Assembly: GCA_029242935.1 (NCBI GenBank)
Contig: JAQWSX010000128.1
Span: forward strand, 1 to 42,871
Source: Akkermansiaceae bacterium
Lineage (GTDB): Bacteria; Verrucomicrobiota; Verrucomicrobiia; Verrucomicrobiales; Akkermansiaceae
Reading direction: 5' to 3'
Length of the DNA stretch: 42,871 nucleotides
Of the stretch, positions 5,290 to 39,041 are shown piece by piece. Position 1 is the stretch's first letter, and every line of letters begins with the position of its first letter. A program made the translations under genes and the position numbers. The notes below the pieces were generated by a model. The model ran no database searches and was not told the DNA's origin. It worked only from the letters and a program-made list of their open reading frames with translations.

Positions 5290-6468
5290 CTAAGACAGCA
5301 AGGTTTTGAGATCAGTCTCAAGTCGGTCGATCGCATCTTGGTCAGTTAATTTTTTTCCGTCTGGAGTGCTGACATAGATTGAGTCGAGGGCGGCTCCTTT
5401 CTCGGTGCAGATGCGTGAGTGAACTGTGACGAGATTGTGGTCGTTCACAGTTCTGAGGACATCGTGGAGGAGTGCGATACGATCGAGGGCCTGAAGTTCG
5501 ATCACAGTATAATGTGGATCGAGATTGTTACTGGTCCACGCCCGGACGGGGAACTCGAAGATCTGCTTTGTCTCTGGTTTAAGGAAATTTTCCTTCTTCT
5601 TGAGGTATTTGGCAGGCTCGTAAGTTTCCTGTTGGTTGATTTCGTAGAGTGTTGCGACAATCGACTTCTGAGTGTTGTTGTTGGTTATGGCCTTAAAATC
5701 GTCATTACAGACGCGGAAGAGATCTAGGACGACGCCGTCTGGACGTGTGTAGACATCTGCAGACAGAATATTTATTTGGTGGGTTGCGAGGGCACAGCAG
5801 GTTTTTTCCAAGAGACGATGGGAATTTTGGCTAACAATGATGAGTTCACTATAACCAAATTTGGACCGCTTAATCCACTGAACAGCGCACTCGAAAGGAG
5901 TGTTAGGCCGCCGCTTTCGCCGATCGATATATTGCCAGAGTGCGACGATATGCTTGGAAATGCTTTTCTTACTTCGATATCGGAAGTAGCGCTTCGGCAT
6001 GAGCTTGGAGTGCTCGTCGAAAATAGCGTGATACTTTTCCTTTAGCCCTGATTTAATTTCAGAGAGTGTTTCTTGAACTTCCTCATTAATTTCCTCTTTG
6101 CCCGCGGTCATTCCTTCGAGAATGAATTCGCGGGTATTTCGGTAGAGCTGGAGAATGAGGGTTTCTTTCCATGGTGACCAAGCTTCTTCGTTGGTGCCAT
6201 TTGAATCCGCATATGTGAAGAGAAGAAGGGCATCAAGGCGGTGCCGATCTCTCATGATCTCCGAAAACTCCCGAATGACTTCGGGGTCATCAATGTTTTT
6301 CTTCGTCGCGAACCTCCATAGGGTGAGGTGATGATCGACAAGGAACATGATAAGATTACGGCGTCCACCTGATATTTTAAGGCGCTTGCAAAGTCGGGCT
6401 GCTAGAATGGCAGAGCCGTCGATATGCTCGCGAACGTTCTCTGCTCTTCCGGTATCGTGCAGAATCAA
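5290..6468 (-). CDS. glnD: GlnD C-terminal fragment (HD domain remainder plus two ACT domains)
   Basis: The distal half of the PII uridylyltransferase/uridylyl-removing enzyme, in the same frame as the upstream fragment and separated from it only by a TAA at 6523-6525. The first codons after that TAA read IYRDLFLKHPDPYALFVA, and the HD metal motif follows as LILHDTGRA, so the protein continues without insertion or loss. Downstream are VDHHLTLW of the HD domain, a helical linker, and two ACT domains (about residues 210-290 and 315-390, the latter with VIELQALDRIALLHDVLRTV), which in GlnD sense glutamine. The start given is a TTG inside the HD domain with no Shine-Dalgarno; independent translation is doubtful, and it would lack the first half of the HD fold. 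Confidence 0.8.
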   Translation of the reverse strand: MILHDTGRAENVREHIDGSAILAARLCKRLKISGGRRNLIMFLVDHHLTLWRFATKKNIDDPEVIREFSEIMRDRHRLDALLLFTYADSNGTNEEAWSPWKETLILQLYRNTREFILEGMTAGKEEINEEVQETLSEIKSGLKEKYHAIFDEHSKLMPKRYFRYRSKKSISKHIVALWQYIDRRKRRPNTPFECAVQWIKRSKFGYSELIIVSQNSHRLLEKTCCALATHQINILSADVYTRPDGVVLDLFRVCNDDFKAITNNNTQKSIVATLYEINQQETYEPAKYLKKKENFLKPETKQIFEFPVRAWTSNNLDPHYTVIELQALDRIALLHDVLRTVNDHNLVTVHSRICTEKGAALDSIYVSTPDGKKLTDQDAIDRLETDLKTLLS

Positions 6469-6522
6469 AGCAACAAAAAGAGCGTATGGATCGGGGTGCT
6501 TTAAGAAAAGATCGCGATAGAT

Positions 6523-6525
6523 TTA
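6523..6525 (-). other. In-frame TAA interrupting glnD
   Basis: On the minus strand the codons run GAC CCG AAA CAC TAA ATC TAT CGC GAT. The reading frame is the same on both sides and the flanking residues (EDPKH before, IYRDLF after) join as a normal GlnD would, so one codon, not a frameshift, separates the halves. TAA is not a selenocysteine or pyrrolysine codon. It could be a real nonsense mutation or a base-call error. Confidence 0.85.
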
Positions 6526-7998
6526 GTGTTTCGGGTCCTCGTCATCGACCAGGCTATCAAGTTGATCGATGCAACGCAGGGTGTGTTCGTCTGCGGTGTA
6601 TCGATGGAAGAATTCGTGCTGCACGAGGCAATCTAGTGCGCCAAACTCGGGAAGATATCTTCCTAAAACTCCGCAGCGGTGCATCAGGCGAAGGGTGCGT
6701 GCGACTTGACCTTTTTTCTCGAGGATTTCCCGGAACGCATCACGGTTTTCCACCCGCATGCGGAACGACTTATCGATGAAGGCCCAACTGGCTTTGATGA
6801 GCTTTCGGAGGGAAGGGGAAGGGCTAACCTCGTATTTTTGGCAGTAGGCGAAAAGTCGGATCAGGCGGTTGGGGTTTTCCTCAAAGATTGTTTTGCGGCG
6901 AGGGAAAAGCCGTTTGTCGCGGATGGTGTAATCGTCAAGTGACTTGGGCTTCTTTTTGATTAGTCCGAAGGTCAGCTTGGATCGAAGTCCATATTGTTGT
7001 CCTTCGTCGTGTTGGAGTTCGAAGATCTCGAAGACTGACTTGGTGTGATTGTAAACGTTTCGAGTATGAGTATAGTAGTCCTTCATGAAACACTCAATGC
7101 GGCGAAGGATGGATTTTTGTGGGTAGCCAAATTCGTTGGCGACTACGCCCTGAAAACGAAGGGTTAGGATATCGTTACCTTTGTCATGGTAATGAAGAGC
7201 GTTTCTGACTCGATGGAGAAAATTAAAAGCGTCCTTTAATTCGCGCCTAGCAAGGCGGCTGAGGATGCGTTTAGAAATGAGCTCAGTCATCGAACGGGTT
7301 CCAGCTTCGGCATCGATGATCCACTCCAAGTTGTGGTAGTCACGGAGAGTGCCGGGACTATCTTTGATATTAGGCTCTTGAAGAAAAACCGTGTGTGACC
7401 ATTTGGCGTGGCGTGATGTGATATCTGATCGACGTTCCTCGAAAAAGGCTTCCTTGTCCTTCTCAATGCAGACCCTCCGGAAACGATCCTGAAATTTCTG
7501 AAATAATTCCTGCGGCCCAATCAACAGGCGGGCATCGAAAAGGGCGGTCCGGGATTGTGGCTCGAGTTTGGCTTCGTTCAGGCACTCTGTGATGGAGCGG
7601 GTAGACGGCAGAAATTTAAAACCAAGATCCCAAACCGTGTTTTGCAGCTCACAAATGACTTCGGAGACCCGCTTTGAGACCTTGCCGGAAGGAACCGAAG
7701 TAAGAAAGAGGAGGTCGACATCCGAGCCCGGATTCATGATGCCCCGGCCGTATCCACCACTGGCGACTAGGGCGAGGCTACCCAATTCTTCGTCTTTTTT
7801 TAGCAAAGAGAGTAAAAGAGTTCTTAAAAGATGATCAATGGCTTCTGAGTGAGCTTGGGCGTGCGCTAAGCCTGCTTCACCTGCGAGATGGCGTTTATGA
7901 AGCTTTCCGTGCCAGTCTTTCAGCTTAGACTTTAAATAAATGAGCCTCTCTTGGGGGGGCAGCTCGCGTAGATGGTCCGCTTTGAGATCGTGGGGCAC
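6523..7998 (-). CDS. glnD: GlnD N-terminal fragment (PII uridylyltransferase domain), truncated
   Basis: The proximal half of GlnD, which attaches UMP to the nitrogen regulator PII when glutamine is low and removes it when glutamine is high. The nucleotidyltransferase motif is intact: ALVASGGYGRGIMNPGSDVDLLFL with the DxD pair. It is followed by the helical GlnE/D-type domain (SPGTLRDYHNLEWI, LHRVRNALHYHDKG) and the first part of the HD domain (HEFFHRYTADEHTLRCIDQLD). Translation then stops at the TAA at 6523. The start is unclear. A GTG at 7998, 16 bp after the upstream gene's stop, seems likeliest; a GTG at 8088 would overlap the L,D-transpeptidase gene by 74 bp and adds residues that do not look conserved. 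Whether the truncated UTase domain is stable or active is unknown. Confidence 0.82.
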   Translation of the reverse strand: MPHDLKADHLRELPPQERLIYLKSKLKDWHGKLHKRHLAGEAGLAHAQAHSEAIDHLLRTLLLSLLKKDEELGSLALVASGGYGRGIMNPGSDVDLLFLTSVPSGKVSKRVSEVICELQNTVWDLGFKFLPSTRSITECLNEAKLEPQSRTALFDARLLIGPQELFQKFQDRFRRVCIEKDKEAFFEERRSDITSRHAKWSHTVFLQEPNIKDSPGTLRDYHNLEWIIDAEAGTRSMTELISKRILSRLARRELKDAFNFLHRVRNALHYHDKGNDILTLRFQGVVANEFGYPQKSILRRIECFMKDYYTHTRNVYNHTKSVFEIFELQHDEGQQYGLRSKLTFGLIKKKPKSLDDYTIRDKRLFPRRKTIFEENPNRLIRLFAYCQKYEVSPSPSLRKLIKASWAFIDKSFRMRVENRDAFREILEKKGQVARTLRLMHRCGVLGRYLPEFGALDCLVQHEFFHRYTADEHTLRCIDQLDSLVDDEDPKH

Positions 7999-8014
7999 AA
8001 GAGATATTGGTAGA

Positions 8015-8647
8015 TTACCAGCGGATTGGGTTGATGCGGTTCCAAACGCTATTACGCGTGTAGTAGGTCCGGCCTGCAGAAGTAGCACGAAGTGATCCGC
8101 GAATGATCTTCACCTCGGTTCCTTCACCAACACGGCGGTATAGATCAATGATGTCTCTGGACTTCATGCGAATGCAGCCATACGAAACGGGGCGACCAAT
8201 CTCCTTCTCGACAGGGGTCCCATGGATATAAATGTAGCGGCGGAAGGTATTGAGATTGTGGCTTTCTTTGCCGCTGAGCCAGAGGATGCGGGTCACGATC
8301 GGATCACGTCCTTTGGCGTTGGGCTTCAAGATCACCCCGGTCTGGCGGCGGTTCTTAAAGACGGCGCCTTTCGGTGCTCCTTCGCCGATTTTTTTTGCAA
8401 TGACGTGGTTTCCAAGCGGAGTACGGTAACTGCCCGATCGGCTGCCAAGACCAAACCTAGAGGTGGAAACGGGGTAGGCCTTAACAGGTTCCCCGTTTTT
8501 CACTACGAGTACTTTTTGGTCCCGGACGCTGATAATCATCCTGTTTTCGAGGTCAATCGATGGAGTGGGGCTTAAATCAATCGATGGAGTACAAGCTGAA
8601 AAGAGGAGAGGGAGAGTTGTAAGGAGGGCACAAACAATCGATTTCAT
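8015..8647 (-). CDS. L,D-transpeptidase (YkuD family) lipoprotein
   Basis: A periplasmic enzyme expected to form 3-3 peptidoglycan cross-links or to link proteins to the wall. The 210-residue protein has a lipoprotein signal peptide ending in LLFSAC with the lipidated Cys at 19. The YkuD domain follows (about 35-185), with the substrate-side histidine at 142 in IHGTP and the nucleophile Cys158 in SYGCIRM. A short tandem duplication, TPSIDL-SP-TPSIDL, sits just after the lipobox and is visible in the DNA as a repeated TCAATCGATGGAGT on the plus strand. It lies between the glycosyltransferase gene (43 bp upstream) and glnD on the same strand. Confidence 0.93.
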   Translation of the reverse strand: MKSIVCALLTTLPLLFSACTPSIDLSPTPSIDLENRMIISVRDQKVLVVKNGEPVKAYPVSTSRFGLGSRSGSYRTPLGNHVIAKKIGEGAPKGAVFKNRRQTGVILKPNAKGRDPIVTRILWLSGKESHNLNTFRRYIYIHGTPVEKEIGRPVSYGCIRMKSRDIIDLYRRVGEGTEVKIIRGSLRATSAGRTYYTRNSVWNRINPIRW

Positions 8648-32193: not shown

Positions 32194-32382
32194 TTACTCG
32201 GTCTCTTCTGACAAGGCCAGGACCTTGTCGTTACTTGCACCGGTTTTGATGATCTCACCGTTCACCTTTAAGTGAACGACGAGACCAAGAAGCTTGTCGC
32301 GATACTTGCTCTTAGCCCCTTTGACCATGATCGGGCGCTGATTGAATGTTCCCCACAGACCGTAGGGATCTTCGGTGAAACA
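32194..32382 (-). other. In-frame continuation after TGA (possible Sec-containing tail)
   Basis: Directly after the TGA at 32383-32385 the frame stays open for 62 codons, beginning CFTEDPYGLWGTF, then NQRPIMVKGAKSKYRDKLLG, and ending ASNDKVLALSEETE before a TAA at 32194. The composition is protein-like (LLGLVVHLKVNGEIIKTG reads as paired strands), not random. The full frame would be 255 codons plus stop. This piece is either the true C-terminus reached by decoding TGA as selenocysteine, or the tail of a gene broken by a nonsense change. Confidence 0.65.
32351..32367 (-). promoter_or_regulatory. Candidate bacterial SECIS hairpin
   Basis: On the minus strand CCCUAC-GGUCU-GUGGGG forms a 6-bp stem (one G-U pair) closing a 5-nt loop. 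It begins 15 nt after the TGA, so the loop starts 21 nt after it. Known bacterial SECIS elements have an apical loop with G in the first positions at about 16-37 nt from the UGA; the E. coli fdhF loop reads AGGUCU. No selenocysteine genes are in the window. Confidence 0.4.
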
Positions 32383-32961
32383 TCATCCACCGCCGCCGCC
32401 TGAGGGCATGACCGGGTTATCGCTCCAAGATTCCAGATTGGCGCTCTTGGTAGTGATGGTTTCAGTTCCGTTTGAGAGGACGAGATCGATCGTGTCCGAG
32501 CCCGAAATCTTTTCAATCTTGTTTTGATATTCGCGGCGATTCCGCTCGACGAAGAAGATATACTCGACAGTCACGTCTTTCAGCATCTCGTCGCGCTTGT
32601 TCTCGACGGTTACGATGTAGTTGTGGTCGTATTTCTCGAAGTGCCACTGTCCCTGAGCAGGCTTATTTTTTTCAGTCCGCTTGCTATAATGCTTGGTTTC
32701 AACCGAGAGGCTTTTCTTGGCCTGAACAATCGGACCTTGTTCCTCGACATACTTCTGGTCTTCCTTCGAGAGGACATCGATCGAAAAGGTGAGGACCTTG
32801 CCGCGCGCTATGCGCATCTTAGCTTTCTTTGTAGACGACTCATATTCAATGAGTTCTCCACGGAACGTCTTGCTGCCATCCTTGCTGATGTAGGTGCGCA
32901 TTTCTCCGAACACCGCAGTGATAGGGAAGCATGCAATAAGCAAAAAATTTCTTATTTTCAT
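32383..32961 (-). CDS. Secreted SHD1-like protein ending at in-frame TGA
   Basis: A 192-residue frame with a signal peptide (MKIRNFLLIACFPITAVFG, cleaved near 19) and an N-terminal SLA1-homology-1-like domain at about 21-75 (MRTYISKDGSKTFRGELIEY, then VLTFSIDVLSKEDQKYVEE), a short beta-barrel found in many secreted PVC proteins. The middle (about 90-175) looks like an all-beta domain (HNYIVTVENKRDEMLKDVTVEY), and the frame ends PVMPSGGGGG at TGA. A glycine run directly before the stop is odd, and the frame continues past it for 62 codons. No function can be assigned. The gene follows the PVC haem protein gene on the same strand, 82 bp downstream. Confidence 0.72.
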   Translation of the reverse strand: MKIRNFLLIACFPITAVFGEMRTYISKDGSKTFRGELIEYESSTKKAKMRIARGKVLTFSIDVLSKEDQKYVEEQGPIVQAKKSLSVETKHYSKRTEKNKPAQGQWHFEKYDHNYIVTVENKRDEMLKDVTVEYIFFVERNRREYQNKIEKISGSDTIDLVLSNGTETITTKSANLESWSDNPVMPSGGGGG

Positions 32962-33043: not shown

Positions 33044-35542
33044 CTATTTCTGGAAAAGAGGATCGTTCTTGTTTCCTCTAGATAAGATGTAAGCGAGTAG
33101 ATCTAGAATGTCGTCATCTTCCAGTAAGTTAAGAAGACCCGGAGGCATCATCGAGAACTTGGTAGGCTCCGACGATTTAATATCGCTGGTCTTGATAATA
33201 GTCATGGCGCCGGGAGCCATGAGATCGGTGATGACCCTGTAAGTGTCTCCGCTCAGGTTGGCGATGCGGCCGATGATTTGTTTTCCATTCTTCAGGGTAA
33301 AGGTAATGGAACCGTATTGGTCACTGATCTCCTTACTGGGGGCGATGATAGATTCAAGTAGGTCGTGCGGGCTGAACTTGCCACCGGCGCTGGTTAAGTC
33401 GGGCCCGATCCCGCCCCCTTCCTCGTTGAAGCGATGACACGCGTAGCAGGTTGCAGTCGCGAACATTTCGCGGCCGTTTTTAAAGTCCCGATTTCCTTCA
33501 AGTCCGGAGCCAAGAAGGGGGGTGAGGTCCTTCATCTTCCAGTTCTTGACGAACTTGAGCTGGCGATTGCTGCTGAGTGGGTTTTTGGTCACGGGCTTGG
33601 CATCGATGATAGACGCGAGCGCCTTCTTTCGCTTCGCAGAAAGACGGGCGAGGTGGTCTTTTTTGATCTCGTTGATGAAGTTGTTGAAGCTTGCACCACC
33701 CTTGTAGCCGGCTGCGCGGCTGAACCAGATGAAAAGTTTTTTCTCGGATTCGTCCGTCCATCCTTGTTTCACAAAACGAATGTTTTTTGCGATGGCAATT
33801 TGCTCTTCCTGGGTGGGTGCGTTGGTAATCAACTCAACCGAGCGTGTGATCATATCGGGAGTCTGAAGGTAGCCTAGAACATTTGAGAGTTCGATGTTTT
33901 CGAATGCCGAATCGCTAGGGTAGTAGGAATCGAGCTGTGCGATTACGGCCGCTTTTTGTTTGGCGTCTGGTGCTCCGAGGCGAAGAAAAGTAAGCCCATA
34001 TGCGCGGAGGAAATCGTAGCGTTCCTGTGGCTTGAGTTCGGCATAATCCAAAGCGAGAAGAGCTTTGATTACAGGAGCCTGATGCTCTTTTCCTCCAAGA
34101 CGGGCGAGGGAAATAAGTCCTCCAAGTTGAGCAAAAGTGTTTTTTTCCCTGAGGACCTTTCCGGCCCATTTTTTGACAGGAACTTTTTCGATGGCAGTGC
34201 GGGCCGTAAAGCGGAGGGCGCGGTCGGCGCTACCAAGGTGCTTCCAAAATTTATCAATAACGGAGGCGTCGCTCTTGAGGTGGTATTTTGCGATGGCCTG
34301 ACGTTCGGCGCGTTCCCTTGCACCTTCGTTGCGAGGCTTAGCGGGAGCGGTGCTTTCGGAACCAGTGTAAGTGACTCGATAAATTCCAGATTGCACCTTA
34401 CGGCCACCGACCGCGATATACATCGCGCCGTCCTTCTTGCTGATACAAATATCGGTCAGAGGGAAAGGCTGTCCGGCGATAAATTCCTCGACTTCCCCGG
34501 TGTAGCTAGAGCCATCCGGCTTAAGGTGAACGGCGTAAAGTTTTCCATAAGACCAGTCGCAGGCGAAGAAGGCCTTTTGATATTTGGTGGGGAATCTGGC
34601 CCCGGTTCCGAAGGTCACGCCGGTGGGTGATCCGGGGCCAACGTTTACAACGGACCCGAAGCTATCGCTGTAATATTCTGGCCATTTGGCCGAGCCATTG
34701 CGCCAGCCGAATTCGGCCCCGCTGATAACGTGGTTGATCCGAGTAGGTCGATACCAAGGCGTGTTGATGTCCCACTCCATATCCGCATCGTAAGTGAACA
34801 TCTCCCCTTCGAGGTTGAAGTCGATGTCGTATTGGTTTCGAAACCCAGTTGCGACAACCTCCCAAATTTCACCTTCGGGATCCGTCTTGCAAATCCATCC
34901 ACGGGGAGCTTCAACCCCTTTCATAAACCCGCGGCCGTAAACCCGCGGTTGGAGTGTGTCTTCGCCCCAGCATTCAGTCACGCGGGAGCTTTGATAATCG
35001 GGAAGAGCAGTTTGGTTTCCGCAGGCCACGTAAAGGGATTTTCCGTCAGGCGAGAGGGACACGGCGTGCGGGCCATGTTCTCCGCCCACTTCTTGAAATT
35101 TTTTGAGTAAGGTGACCTTGTCGAACTTATCATCGTTGTCGGTGTCCTGCACTCGGTAAAGACCACGCCCTTTGTGCTTCTTGTCGTTCACCACGACGTA
35201 AAGAGAGTCGAAGGCATAGCAAAGTCCCCAAGCATGACCAATATCGAGGTCAATCTTTTGGAGGTCCTTGTCGGCGAGAGTTTCACCTTGGGCAGGGCGG
35301 TTGAAGCGGTAAAGCGAGCCGTATTGATCACCTGCGATGAGACGACCTTTATCGTCTTCGCAAAGAACGACCCAGGAACCGAAATCCTTTTTGGGAACTG
35401 AGTAGAGCCGCTCGACTTTGAACCCTTCTTTTACGACTAGGCGTTGTGGGGAAGTGGCTTGGGAGACGAAATCTTCGCCAAGAGTGACTTGAGCCATGAA
35501 AGCGGCTCCGATGATAACGGTAGATTTAAGGGATTTGTTCAC
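33044..35542 (-). CDS. Secreted PVC-type haem-binding propeller/HEAT protein
   Basis: An exported protein of about 832 residues. From the GTG at 35542 it has a good signal peptide (NKSLKSTVIIGAAFMAQVTLG); a TTG at 35587 would add 15 cysteine-rich residues that look spurious. Residues about 30-400 form a sorbosone-dehydrogenase-like beta-propeller (GLYRVQDTDNDDKFDKVTLL, GFRNQYDIDFNLEGEMFTYD), about 400-640 a HEAT-like helical region, and the C-terminus a PVC-type c-haem domain with CYACH near residue 697 (TATCYACHRFNEEGGGIGPD) and MMPPGLLNLL as distal Met ligand. This architecture is typical of Planctomycetes and Verrucomicrobia and is thought to serve oxidation of sugars or similar compounds; substrate is unknown. 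Confidence 0.9.
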   Translation of the reverse strand: MNKSLKSTVIIGAAFMAQVTLGEDFVSQATSPQRLVVKEGFKVERLYSVPKKDFGSWVVLCEDDKGRLIAGDQYGSLYRFNRPAQGETLADKDLQKIDLDIGHAWGLCYAFDSLYVVVNDKKHKGRGLYRVQDTDNDDKFDKVTLLKKFQEVGGEHGPHAVSLSPDGKSLYVACGNQTALPDYQSSRVTECWGEDTLQPRVYGRGFMKGVEAPRGWICKTDPEGEIWEVVATGFRNQYDIDFNLEGEMFTYDADMEWDINTPWYRPTRINHVISGAEFGWRNGSAKWPEYYSDSFGSVVNVGPGSPTGVTFGTGARFPTKYQKAFFACDWSYGKLYAVHLKPDGSSYTGEVEEFIAGQPFPLTDICISKKDGAMYIAVGGRKVQSGIYRVTYTGSESTAPAKPRNEGARERAERQAIAKYHLKSDASVIDKFWKHLGSADRALRFTARTAIEKVPVKKWAGKVLREKNTFAQLGGLISLARLGGKEHQAPVIKALLALDYAELKPQERYDFLRAYGLTFLRLGAPDAKQKAAVIAQLDSYYPSDSAFENIELSNVLGYLQTPDMITRSVELITNAPTQEEQIAIAKNIRFVKQGWTDESEKKLFIWFSRAAGYKGGASFNNFINEIKKDHLARLSAKRKKALASIIDAKPVTKNPLSSNRQLKFVKNWKMKDLTPLLGSGLEGNRDFKNGREMFATATCYACHRFNEEGGGIGPDLTSAGGKFSPHDLLESIIAPSKEISDQYGSITFTLKNGKQIIGRIANLSGDTYRVITDLMAPGAMTIIKTSDIKSSEPTKFSMMPPGLLNLLEDDDILDLLAYILSRGNKNDPLFQK

Positions 35543-35660
35543 AGAGGATGGGATGCTATTCAAGCAGCATTCACAACGCCATTTCAAAAATCAGATCTTG
35601 AAGAAGTGTTTCCTATTTTGAAGCAATCAACATGGAGGAATGGCTCCTTCATCTCGTGTT

Positions 35661-38600
35661 TTATTTATGTCCCTCGTCCGTTTTGTCCTTCTTGCAGGAA
35701 ACGAGGAAGGCCACCAAGTCGCGAGCTTCTTGTTTGCTGAGTAGAGCGTTCATTGGGGGCATTGCCGAGACCGGTTTGCTCTTTTTGGCGATGTCTGATT
35801 TCTTGATGATCTTGGTCGTTTCGGCAAACTTAATAGTGGCATTTCCGTTTTTGTCATCGGGCATGAAGTTGCCGCTGATCTCGGTGCCGTCCTTCAGGGT
35901 GATAGTGCCAAGGCCGTATCCGTCAGCGACTTCGGCGCCAGGATTGATGAGTGAACGCAGCAGGTAGGTGGAATCGTGTTTTTTACCGATCGCTCCAAGC
36001 TCGGGGCCGACGTCCCCGCCGACTCCGTGCATGGTATGGCAGCGTTGACATTGGGCAGCTCCGTGTTCGTAAAAGACCTTTTTCCCCAAGTTGATGTCAC
36101 CACCATCGCGGCAGAGGAGATTCCACTCGGCGTTGGGGTCGTTCTTGGCGAGAGAAGCACGGAATTTCTCGAGCGGGAGAGCCACTGTTTCGGCAGCGGT
36201 GACGATGTCGAGGGCGAGTCCTGACTCGGCTTTTCCGGCAGCCAGTTGGTCGAGAACAGCCTTGATCATCTCTTTAGCTTTGGGTGTTTTGAGCTTGGTC
36301 AGAGTTTGCAGAGTAAGCTGCTTTTCTTTCAAGGTGGCGCTTTTGCTCGTGAGAAGGTTTCCAAGTTGAGCGGTGGCGCGATCGGGATCGTTCTTGAAGA
36401 GAAGCTCTCTCGCCATGCTTCGGACTTTGTCGCTCTTATCGGCGAAAAGTTTCTGAAGTGTGAACGGCCAAACGGAATCCGATTTTTTGAGGGGCGCGAG
36501 AAGTTTCATTGATTTAACGCGGGCCTCCTCGGGGTATTTTTCATTTTTCAGGTATCGAGTGAGTCGAAGTTCACCGAGTGGGATCTGATCTTGTTCGGAG
36601 AGTATGAGGGCTCGGGGAATAAGCTCCATCGAGCTTTTATCATCGCCATCGAGAAGTCCCTTAAGGTCTTCAATGACGTTAAAATCTAGTTTAATCCGAT
36701 TATCGGGAAGGATCCGGGCGAATCCAGTGACAGGATCAGGGACGGGTGGATTGTTCCATTCGAGAAGCGCGATTAGCGCGTCCTTACGAGTCCGAAAATC
36801 AACTTTTGGGTCGGCTGCGATTTTCGCGATTACTTCGGCGTCCTTTTCCTGGCCCAAAACCCAAGCTGCAAAAATTGCTCTTCGGGCGGTCAGAGGATGC
36901 CATTTGATTGCAGGAGAGACTCTTAGAGCAATGCGGTGTGCTTGGTTTGAGAGTGCCCGATAGGTTTTACGAACATCCATTTCGTAAGCAGCGCGAATCG
37001 CTTCCTGACGGACCGACTCATCGCGGTCCGTAAAGTAGGTTTCGAGAAGATGAGATTGATGCCGACGAAGGGCAATGACGATGGCGCGGCGGACTGCTGT
37101 CGAACGATGGTCGTAGTCTTTCCAATCGGGTGTAAACTTGGCGCATTTAGTAAGAACCATGATTCCAGCGTGACGGACAACAACGTCATTATCGTCGTTT
37201 TTCTCTAACATCTCAATCGCTGGTTCGACTGCGTCCTTGTGACCATGATTGGAGAGAGCAATGGCCGCGAGTGACACGACACGTGGTGAGGAATCCTCGA
37301 GCATTGCGATCAGAGTCTTTCGGAATGGGGCGAGGTGCTTACCGTGATTACTAAGTGTGCGCGCGAGGTTGGCTCTGACTTCCATTTCTTTGTCGCCAAT
37401 TAAGCTGGCGAGGGAATTGAGAGCGGAAGGATTTTTCTGACCAAGCTGACCGATCCCCCAAATTCCGTGGATTCTGCGCATAAGTGGTTGGTTGGGCTTG
37501 ATTGCTTTTTCGAATAGAGGAAGTGAATCGAGGTCGTGATCGGCGAGAGCGAATTGAGCGCGCTGGCGAACCCGCTGGTCAGGATGGGCCAGAAGCTCGA
37601 AGAGTTTGTCTGACTTAAGAGAGGGGATGCCCTTTGCAAAAAGATTTTTGACCTCTGCAATGCCTTTTGATTTGAGCTTTGAGTCGTCGGCGAGGGTGTA
37701 TACGTTGCCTTTTCCAGACTTGGTCCAGCCACCACCGTAGTCGGCAATATAGAGCTTGCCATCATATCCCCAGTCGAGGTCGGTAAGGGCAATTCCCTTG
37801 AGGAAGGTTGTTTGCTCGCCGAGTTTGAAGTTGGCTCCGTCAGGATTTAAAGTGAAGCGTTCAATGAGGCAGCGACCGGGGCCGGCAACGTAGCTAGCAA
37901 CGAAGAAGTTACGGTCGAATTTTTTAGGTAGTCCGACGATGCCAGGATTGTAGGCCAACCCACAGGGGCCGTTCGAGCTGTATGCGATCGGTGGGTTGAT
38001 GTAAGCGGGTTGGCGGTCGTGGCGGGTATTCCAAAGACCTTCGTTCATCCAAGCATCGATCTGATCCTCTTTGCGCGAAGGCTTTCCGCCAATATGATTG
38101 TAGACTGAGCCGCCGAAGGAGACCATGGTTTGGTGGCCCATTTTCCAGCCGGAATCTCCATGTTCGACGAGATAGACGATCCGCTCACGATCTCCTTGGT
38201 CGTAGTCGTTATCGACGGTAAATAAGTTGCCAAATTCATCAAAAACAATCTCTTTTGGATTACGAAGATTGACGTAGAACTCCTCAAATTCAGACCCGTC
38301 GGGGTTAGCCCTGAAGACCCCGCCGGAGTCGGGACGAGCAAAGGTCTTACCATCCTGCTCGACATGATAACCACGGTCGCCAATCGACCAGTAGAGTTTG
38401 CCATCGGGACCCCAGGCGAATCCATTGAGGTCATGACCGGAAAAGCTGACGCGGACGCCAAAACCATTAACGAGCGTTTTAACCTCTTCAGCTTTTCCAT
38501 CATTATTGGTATCTTTTAAGCTGTAGACCCCAGGAATCATTGCGAAGTATACGGTGCCGTCTTTTTCGATGAGCCCGCCGGAGGGGCCGGCGAGAGGGGT

Positions 38601-39041
38601 GTTGAAATCACCGCGGTAGATAGTGGTCTTATCTGAGACACCATCGCCATCGGTGTCTTCGAGAAGCTTGATGACCTCGGAATCTTTTGTGAATTCATCC
38701 CACTTCAGGAAGTCCTTCTGCTTGCCGGCCCATTTCTTGTGGTAGGCGGTACGATCCTCAAGAGTCATATTGGAAATATCCCCGTTTACGCGGTCGCGCA
38801 GGAATCTGCCACCGTGACGGATATCTTGGACTTGAACACGCCAGCGATTGGTTTCGGCAATATAAACGCGGTTTTGAGCGTCGATGCAGATCGCGGTGGC
38901 GTTTTGGACCTGACTTTGATCGGCGAAGCGATTGAGCGTTAGGCCTTCGGGAATGGTTATTCTTTTGTCGAGCTTGGAAGGAACGAGCTGGGCGTTGAGC
39001 GGCAGAAGGGCGAAGAAAGAAAGAAGAAGTGTGCGTGGCAT
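35661..39041 (-). CDS. Large secreted PVC-type haem-binding propeller/HEAT protein
   Basis: A 1126-residue exported protein with signal peptide MPRTLLLSFFALLPLNAQ. The N-terminal half is a dehydrogenase-like beta-propeller (AICIDAQNRVYIAETNRWRV, LEDTDGDGVSDKTTIYRG, GLAYNPGIVGLPKKFDRN); a long HEAT-repeat solenoid spans about 480-900 (DQRVRQRAQFALADHD, VRANLARTLSNHGKHL, DESVRQEAIRAAYEMDV); the C-terminal c-haem domain has CQRCH near residue 997 (AAQCQRCHTMHGVGGDVGPE) and SAMPPMNALLSKQEARDLVAFL as Met ligand region. It is a distant paralogue of the downstream gene, 118 bp away on the same strand. A periplasmic or outer-membrane-associated electron-transfer role is inferred; no substrate can be named. 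Confidence 0.9.
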   Translation of the reverse strand: MPRTLLLSFFALLPLNAQLVPSKLDKRITIPEGLTLNRFADQSQVQNATAICIDAQNRVYIAETNRWRVQVQDIRHGGRFLRDRVNGDISNMTLEDRTAYHKKWAGKQKDFLKWDEFTKDSEVIKLLEDTDGDGVSDKTTIYRGDFNTPLAGPSGGLIEKDGTVYFAMIPGVYSLKDTNNDGKAEEVKTLVNGFGVRVSFSGHDLNGFAWGPDGKLYWSIGDRGYHVEQDGKTFARPDSGGVFRANPDGSEFEEFYVNLRNPKEIVFDEFGNLFTVDNDYDQGDRERIVYLVEHGDSGWKMGHQTMVSFGGSVYNHIGGKPSRKEDQIDAWMNEGLWNTRHDRQPAYINPPIAYSSNGPCGLAYNPGIVGLPKKFDRNFFVASYVAGPGRCLIERFTLNPDGANFKLGEQTTFLKGIALTDLDWGYDGKLYIADYGGGWTKSGKGNVYTLADDSKLKSKGIAEVKNLFAKGIPSLKSDKLFELLAHPDQRVRQRAQFALADHDLDSLPLFEKAIKPNQPLMRRIHGIWGIGQLGQKNPSALNSLASLIGDKEMEVRANLARTLSNHGKHLAPFRKTLIAMLEDSSPRVVSLAAIALSNHGHKDAVEPAIEMLEKNDDNDVVVRHAGIMVLTKCAKFTPDWKDYDHRSTAVRRAIVIALRRHQSHLLETYFTDRDESVRQEAIRAAYEMDVRKTYRALSNQAHRIALRVSPAIKWHPLTARRAIFAAWVLGQEKDAEVIAKIAADPKVDFRTRKDALIALLEWNNPPVPDPVTGFARILPDNRIKLDFNVIEDLKGLLDGDDKSSMELIPRALILSEQDQIPLGELRLTRYLKNEKYPEEARVKSMKLLAPLKKSDSVWPFTLQKLFADKSDKVRSMARELLFKNDPDRATAQLGNLLTSKSATLKEKQLTLQTLTKLKTPKAKEMIKAVLDQLAAGKAESGLALDIVTAAETVALPLEKFRASLAKNDPNAEWNLLCRDGGDINLGKKVFYEHGAAQCQRCHTMHGVGGDVGPELGAIGKKHDSTYLLRSLINPGAEVADGYGLGTITLKDGTEISGNFMPDDKNGNATIKFAETTKIIKKSDIAKKSKPVSAMPPMNALLSKQEARDLVAFLVSCKKDKTDEGHK

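Follow-up and report, generated by a model that had tools for sequence, protein, structure and literature searches.

The window, by which we mean the whole stretch of 42,871 nt analysed here, contains on its minus strand (32194..32961) a gene that most probably encodes a secreted selenoprotein of a family absent from the catalogues searched, in which selenocysteine (Sec) would be inserted by means of SelB and a hairpin, and a Sec-Cys pair on a loop would form a redox centre (probability about 0.82). The frame begins with the ATG at 32961, runs through an in-frame TGA at 32385-32383, stays open for 62 more sense codons and ends with the TAA at 32196-32194, giving a protein of 255 aa with Sec193; this gene model is based on the frame, the orthologues and AF2 models. 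The open frame beyond the TGA had been described in the earlier note and holds at these coordinates, on a strand that the note left unstated. The TGA lies in the context GGT GGA TGA TGT, directly after five Gly codons (GGGGG, residues 188-192; 32386..32400) in a loop predicted to be disordered (pLDDT < 50), and is followed by the TGT of Cys194, the sole other Cys/Sec in the mature protein. Its assignment as the Sec193 codon (32383..32385) is based on the frame and on the TGA of the orthologues and family members described below. By inspection, the N-terminus (MKIRNFLLIACFPITAVFG; 32905..32961) resembles a signal peptide, so export of the protein is probable.

The reading of this gene as a selenoprotein, which the earlier note had proposed as new in a PVC lineage, is strongly supported at the sequence level by the TGA kept in orthologues and distant members, by hairpins and by the presence of selA, selB and selD. 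From this conservation and these machinery genes we infer that SelB with Sec-tRNA would bind the hairpin, which begins 15 nt downstream of UGA193, so that Sec is inserted and translation does not terminate there. After the probable export, Sec193 and Cys194 may cycle between reduced and selenenylsulfide states, with a diselenide instead in some members and a disulfide in the Cys forms. This would give the protein a redox-active loop, located in the periplasm or on the cell surface, that might, for instance, reduce thiol/disulfide or peroxide substrates.

A family across the order and its paired loop residues

The TGA is retained at the same place in homologues with 16-29% identity, which belong to five families of the order. 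From 386 genomes of the order searched, 102 had a match at E <= 1e-20, and 50 new loci from this search formed a held-out set, in which 40 have TGA in the loop (39 found by script and L205 by eye). Two of the order-wide matches, G534 and G546:C233, also hold a TAA somewhere. Together with the 28 members of the discovery set, 9 of which are same-genus orthologues, 68 TGA members were read in total. In an alignment of 22 diverse members (A1), TGA is found in the loop of all except L018 (21/22). The phylum-wide draw gave matches in 82 from 387 genomes; among the matches listed, TGA was present only in the window's own gene and in a domain-only row (G048:C6), the others being without a stop. The earlier note had considered that homologues might uniformly have Gly at this position, but 68 members have TGA and 10 have Cys in the loop. 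In a tree of 65 rows, whose deepest forks are weak and whose root is a midpoint only, the Sec label needs 3 changes, which could be a single gain with two losses. Of the order's six families represented in the tree, five (f1, f2, f3, f5 and f6) contribute Sec rows, f4 being entirely non-Sec.

In 67 of the 68 members, Sec has another Cys or Sec no more than 10 residues away, at offsets that shift among them. In the discovery set, exactly one other Cys/Sec lies within 8 residues in 28/28, at +1 (13 members), +5 (6), -1 (3), -5 (3) or -3 (1), or as a second Sec at -6 or -7 (2); the density of Cys/Sec is 28/448 positions near Sec vs 13/5751 elsewhere. This pattern was noticed in the discovery set and then sought in the held-out set, where exactly one other Cys/Sec was found within 8 residues in 37/40 members, mostly at -5 or +1 and also at -7, or as a second Sec at +1, +6 or +8. 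The corresponding densities are 36/624 near Sec vs 24/7755 elsewhere (39 scripted members), and the exceptions are L217, whose Sec is alone, and L203 and L207, each with two Sec at a distance of 10. Thus, the Sec-Cys pair pointed out in the earlier note is general across the family, with a spacing that changes from lineage to lineage, which that note had missed. Two in-frame TGA codons occur in L209, L203, L207, L021, L035, L206 and L210, those of L209 being adjacent (GGUUG), possibly encoding a vicinal diselenide.

Homologues with Cys in place of Sec are few, 10 in all, each with at least two Cys in a loop that aligns loosely. Eight of them belong to the 10 held-out members without TGA, the other two of which (L186 and L218) have no Cys in the loop, and the further Cys forms are L073 (CC) and L117 (CPKC). 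In four from the 10 (L117, L212, L213 and L214) a third Cys lies just before. Across the family, the loop has Sec-Cys, Cys-Sec, Sec-Sec (even as an adjacent UU) or Cys-Cys sets, and we infer that they act as a selenenylsulfide/diselenide redox pair. For the family as a whole, we lean slightly towards the view that, across this order of Verrucomicrobiota, selection keeps two chalcogens on one disordered loop, in interchangeable sets and spacings on an Ig-like scaffold, as a new, motif-free, non-thioredoxin extracellular redox or metal centre.

The AF2 models (mean pLDDT of 78.3 and 82.2) consist of a small beta domain, a helix and a beta-sandwich, with the Sec loop (around 187-216, mostly with pLDDT < 50) between two strands. 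The protein is thus predicted to combine a small SHD1-like domain with an Ig-like beta-sandwich that bears Sec on a flexible Gly-rich loop. Foldseek returned weak matches only, many of them Ig-like (arrestins, ApaG-like 1tza, Amuc_1102) and none hinting at an active site. Amuc_1102 (PDB 7dsz) and the ApaG-like Ig folds (1tza, 1xvs and 1xq4) were matched with probabilities of 0.99-1.00, at TM-scores of 0.22-0.44 and 10-17% identity, and the comparison holds at the fold level only.

The SHD1-like character suggested in the earlier note stands as a weak N-terminal resemblance in some members, with SHD1 (PF03983) found at E <= 0.01 in 3 of 50 (best 0.0017), but the window protein itself has no Pfam match to SHD1. 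Among 6 members compared with the gathering cut-off of 23.7, the best score was 16.2 bits (L025), below the cut-off, and a PDB sequence match to SLA1 had an E-value of 0.066. Unlike SHD1 alone, the family adds the Sec-bearing beta-sandwich.

The proximity of Sec to Cys recalls the thioredoxin-fold selenoproteins with UxxC or CxxU (thioredoxin, TlpA-like UGC), as do the Cys homologues with CxxC (CPTC, CPKC), and by this analogy thiol redox chemistry is likely common to both. However, in the family studied here the spacing of the pair is variable and the pair lies on a disordered loop, in a predicted SHD1-like plus Ig-like sandwich architecture. A thioredoxin fold was rejected, since AF2 gives a beta domain and a beta-sandwich and no thioredoxin is among the Foldseek matches listed. 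Separately, an SHD1-like N-terminus joined to a thioredoxin-like domain with TGA at UxxC (WUPPC, STUGPC, WUGPC) was observed in L222 (G000:C158, in the genome that carries the window), L219-L221, L108, L109, L111 and L112, which are candidates for a second selenoprotein group in the genus.

A genuine selenoprotein could also use the loop pair to bind a soft metal (Cu, Hg, Zn or Ni) or to carry selenium, with no redox catalysis. The variable spacing (+1, -1, -3, +5, -5, -7 or a second Sec) and the flexible loop would suit a loose chelating site equally well, the four Cys forms with three Cys fit it, and no enzyme-like fold match was found. Nevertheless, most members have just two such residues, no conserved His or Met is seen beside them by eye in A1, and uncharacterised prokaryotic selenoproteins are mostly thought to have redox functions, according to the available part of a recent inventory (PMC13188914). 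We consider binding or carriage without catalysis unlikely, and a redox role of the pair remains our preferred reading. It is far less probable that the main product is a truncated protein of 192 residues, with Sec insertion being minor or selenium-regulated. UGA recoding in bacteria competes with termination, reaching 30-40% in vivo in one bacterial study (PMC4513850, available part), but the part downstream of the TGA is conserved and the three final predicted strands would be absent from the truncated protein.

Hairpin and selenium machinery

A SECIS-like hairpin, CCCUAC-GGUCU-GUGGGG, is located at 32351..32367 on the minus strand, with arms at 32367-32362 and 32356-32351 and the loop at 32361-32357. 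The 6-bp stem begins 15 nt past the TGA, as the earlier note had observed, and the GGUCU loop starts at nt 22 after the UGA. The E. coli fdhF SECIS has a GGUCU-like loop, and the window hairpin resembles it in both the loop and the distance of 15 nt from the UGA; the stem sequences of the family vary between subfamilies. A piece of 31 nt around the hairpin gave z = -2.13 against dinucleotide shuffles (5/200 as good), and the SECIS-shaped score of the window gene exceeded that of synonymous-codon shuffles (p = 0.024, the same hairpin being counted there as 8 bp with a 3-nt loop). An Rfam scan of the window gave no match. The hairpin after the TAA that had been taken for terminator-like did not fare well, being no better than shuffles (z = -0.95) and absent from the list of the terminator scan.

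Across the family, the SECIS-shaped score, which selects the best paired stem by construction, averages 17.9 in 22 discovery sites vs 10.1 in codon-preserving synonymous shuffles (Fisher 1e-16), with 6e-13 for the 15 less redundant sites. For 39 held-out sites the means are 16.4 vs 9.1 (Fisher 1e-24), and 27 of them are individually below 0.05; these combined p-values overstate independence, because the members are related. The 12 held-out sites not under 0.05 include L169, whose stem is imperfect, and L196, which has N letters. Another of the 12 is L184, where a GGUC hairpin of 9 bp lies outside the scored range, its loop beginning around 46 nt after the TGA (counted by hand); it is possibly a displaced SECIS. 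By plain MFE, the downstream segment was significant against windows from the same gene (1e-7), with no significant gain over synonymous shuffles (p = 0.09).

In distant members the stems differ between subfamilies and the loops are mostly of GGUC or AGUU type, with G among their first positions, starting 18-26 nt after the UGA. At every position of 20 different 5-bp stems (hand-typed) there are at least 4 standard pair types, which illustrates variety and is no test, because the stems were chosen for pairing. Fourteen non-Sec homologues were tested in all: the 4 that keep the (G)GRR motif (L071, L072, L100 and L186) have no hairpin scoring above 12, and the 10 others score 5-26, three of them at 16 or more.

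The genome that carries the window encodes SelA (480.8 bits; cut-off 267.9), SelB (312.5 bits; cut-off 242.25) and SelD (L067, G000:C149:64935-65861; 384.5 bits; cut-off 125), the last with its own in-frame TGA (SCGGUASK), and also contains a further TGA gene reading SASWUPPC. Of the selABCD genes that the earlier note proposed to search for, selA, selB and selD are thus present, but tRNA-Sec (selC) was not found in this 85.5%-complete assembly. G000 (the genome that carries the window), G020, G023 and G026, all of which carry the gene, show no tRNA-Sec over the Rfam cut-off, and a DNA search for it in these four found nothing, in a design that had no positive control genome. In the genus, 20 from 27 genomes contain a tRNA-Sec over the Rfam cut-off, which is also passed by 5 from 14 control genomes, and ARAGORN reported tRNA-SeC in 4 of the 5 loci given to it, the fifth being the flank of the window genome's own selB. 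SelA is present in 21/22 carriers of the TGA form vs 16/36 others (58 genomes searched; p = 6e-5), and the single carrier without it (G062, with an assembly 83% complete) has SelB and tRNA-Sec over the cut-offs.

The missing tRNA-Sec would leave room for another reading of the UGA, as Trp by a changed code or by general read-through. This is hardly credible: SelA, SelB and a Sec-containing SelD are encoded in the genome, and the loop of the 10 non-TGA forms has Cys, not Trp, on which grounds a changed genetic code was rejected. Furthermore, in the same-genus orthologues L010 and L016 a further TGA stands in place of the final TAA or TAG of the other orthologues, which suggests that TGA still ends genes.

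Orthologues and gene neighbourhood

Some match to the selenoprotein was found in 61 from 97 genomes searched, and a full-length or nearly full-length orthologue, with 70-93% identity to the window protein, in 9 from 27 same-genus genomes (own included). All 9 orthologues have the in-frame TGA at the identical codon. The eight others come from MAGs named Akkermansiaceae (4), Verrucomicrobiales (2), Verrucomicrobiota (1) and Verrucomicrobiia (1). Purifying selection acts on the codons downstream of the TGA (NG86 dN/dS of 0.14, 36 pairs), and the upstream codons have a value of 0.05 (24 from 36 pairs usable). Synonymous variation is present at 106 of the 128 codons with an invariant degenerate residue in the 9 orthologues. 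The sole run of at least 4 such codons without synonymous change comprises 9 codons, from -1 to +11 of the TGA, and covers the UGA context and the hairpin.

A nonsense change or base error at the TGA, with the downstream frame as a remnant, was rejected and can practically be dismissed: MAGs can carry errors, but the same TGA in eight further, separate assemblies makes an error in the window assembly very unlikely, and both the downstream dN/dS and the 68 TGA members speak against a remnant. As a parallel for such an error, the earlier note had cited an in-frame stop in glnD (5290-8088, minus strand), where one frame is split into parts of 521 and 392 aa. This stop is a TAA (6525-6523), hence ochre, and so is no parallel for a UGA and is unrelated to Sec.

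Upstream of the selenoprotein gene, 82 nt away and in the same direction, lies a gene for a cytochrome c domain protein of 847 aa (33044..35587, minus strand). It is upstream in 7 of the 8 named orthologous loci, around 1 kb off in L126, with L127 beginning at a contig end. The same 7 loci have a further upstream neighbour (35661..39041, minus strand) encoding 1126 aa with DUF7133, HEAT and cytochrome c domains. Within the genus, the two cytochrome c genes hint at periplasmic electron transfer. A family-wide operon partner was rejected, since in 14 regions the cytochrome genes appear in the one orthologous region and none of the queried window neighbours in the 13 distant ones. Two same-genus copies (L128 and L140) adjoin another protein with two CxxCH motifs, and the distance between a histidine kinase gene and the selenoprotein gene is around 3.7 kb greater in L122 and L124 than in L120.

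Known families and significance

Assignment to a known family of NCBIfam or Pfam was rejected, since 50 members gave no supported model. In NCBIfam (release 20.0), 6 and then 50 members were searched with only three stray single-member matches, none to a selenoprotein model, and in Pfam the 50 members had a few stray matches and no supported family. None of the 119 selenoprotein families in Table 1 of the 2026 inventory (PMC13188914, available part) corresponds by name and motif, and the family is not recognisable in the literature as far as the available parts go, including PMC12013277, PMC9312934, PMC2398784, PMC5330540, PMC5029168, PMC3281104 and PMC13174399. Novelty in print is likely, though not proven. 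The family is comparable to GOS_A, GOS_B (NF041374), DG, DW and DF, which are hypothetical bacterial selenoproteins that are uncharacterised and have no known domain. GOS_A, described with 2 Sec forms and 155 Cys homologues in the available part of PMC2398784, differs from the present family, whose Cys homologues are few; the two are set apart by description, not by sequence.

If our reading is correct, Verrucomicrobiota make a large and apparently overlooked family of secreted selenoproteins. Standard gene calling would truncate these proteins at the UGA and, given the scarcity of Cys homologues and a loop that hardly aligns, the family would tend to escape searches based on Cys/Sec pairs. 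For deep-Sep, its authors note that the method may filter out selenoproteins without Cys homologues (PMC12013277). The interchangeable Sec-Cys, Sec-Sec and Cys-Cys sets would allow the reasons for using selenium to be studied in a natural experiment, and the candidate SHD1-like/thioredoxin-like UxxC fusions in the same genus may point to a wider extracellular selenium redox system that is worth testing.
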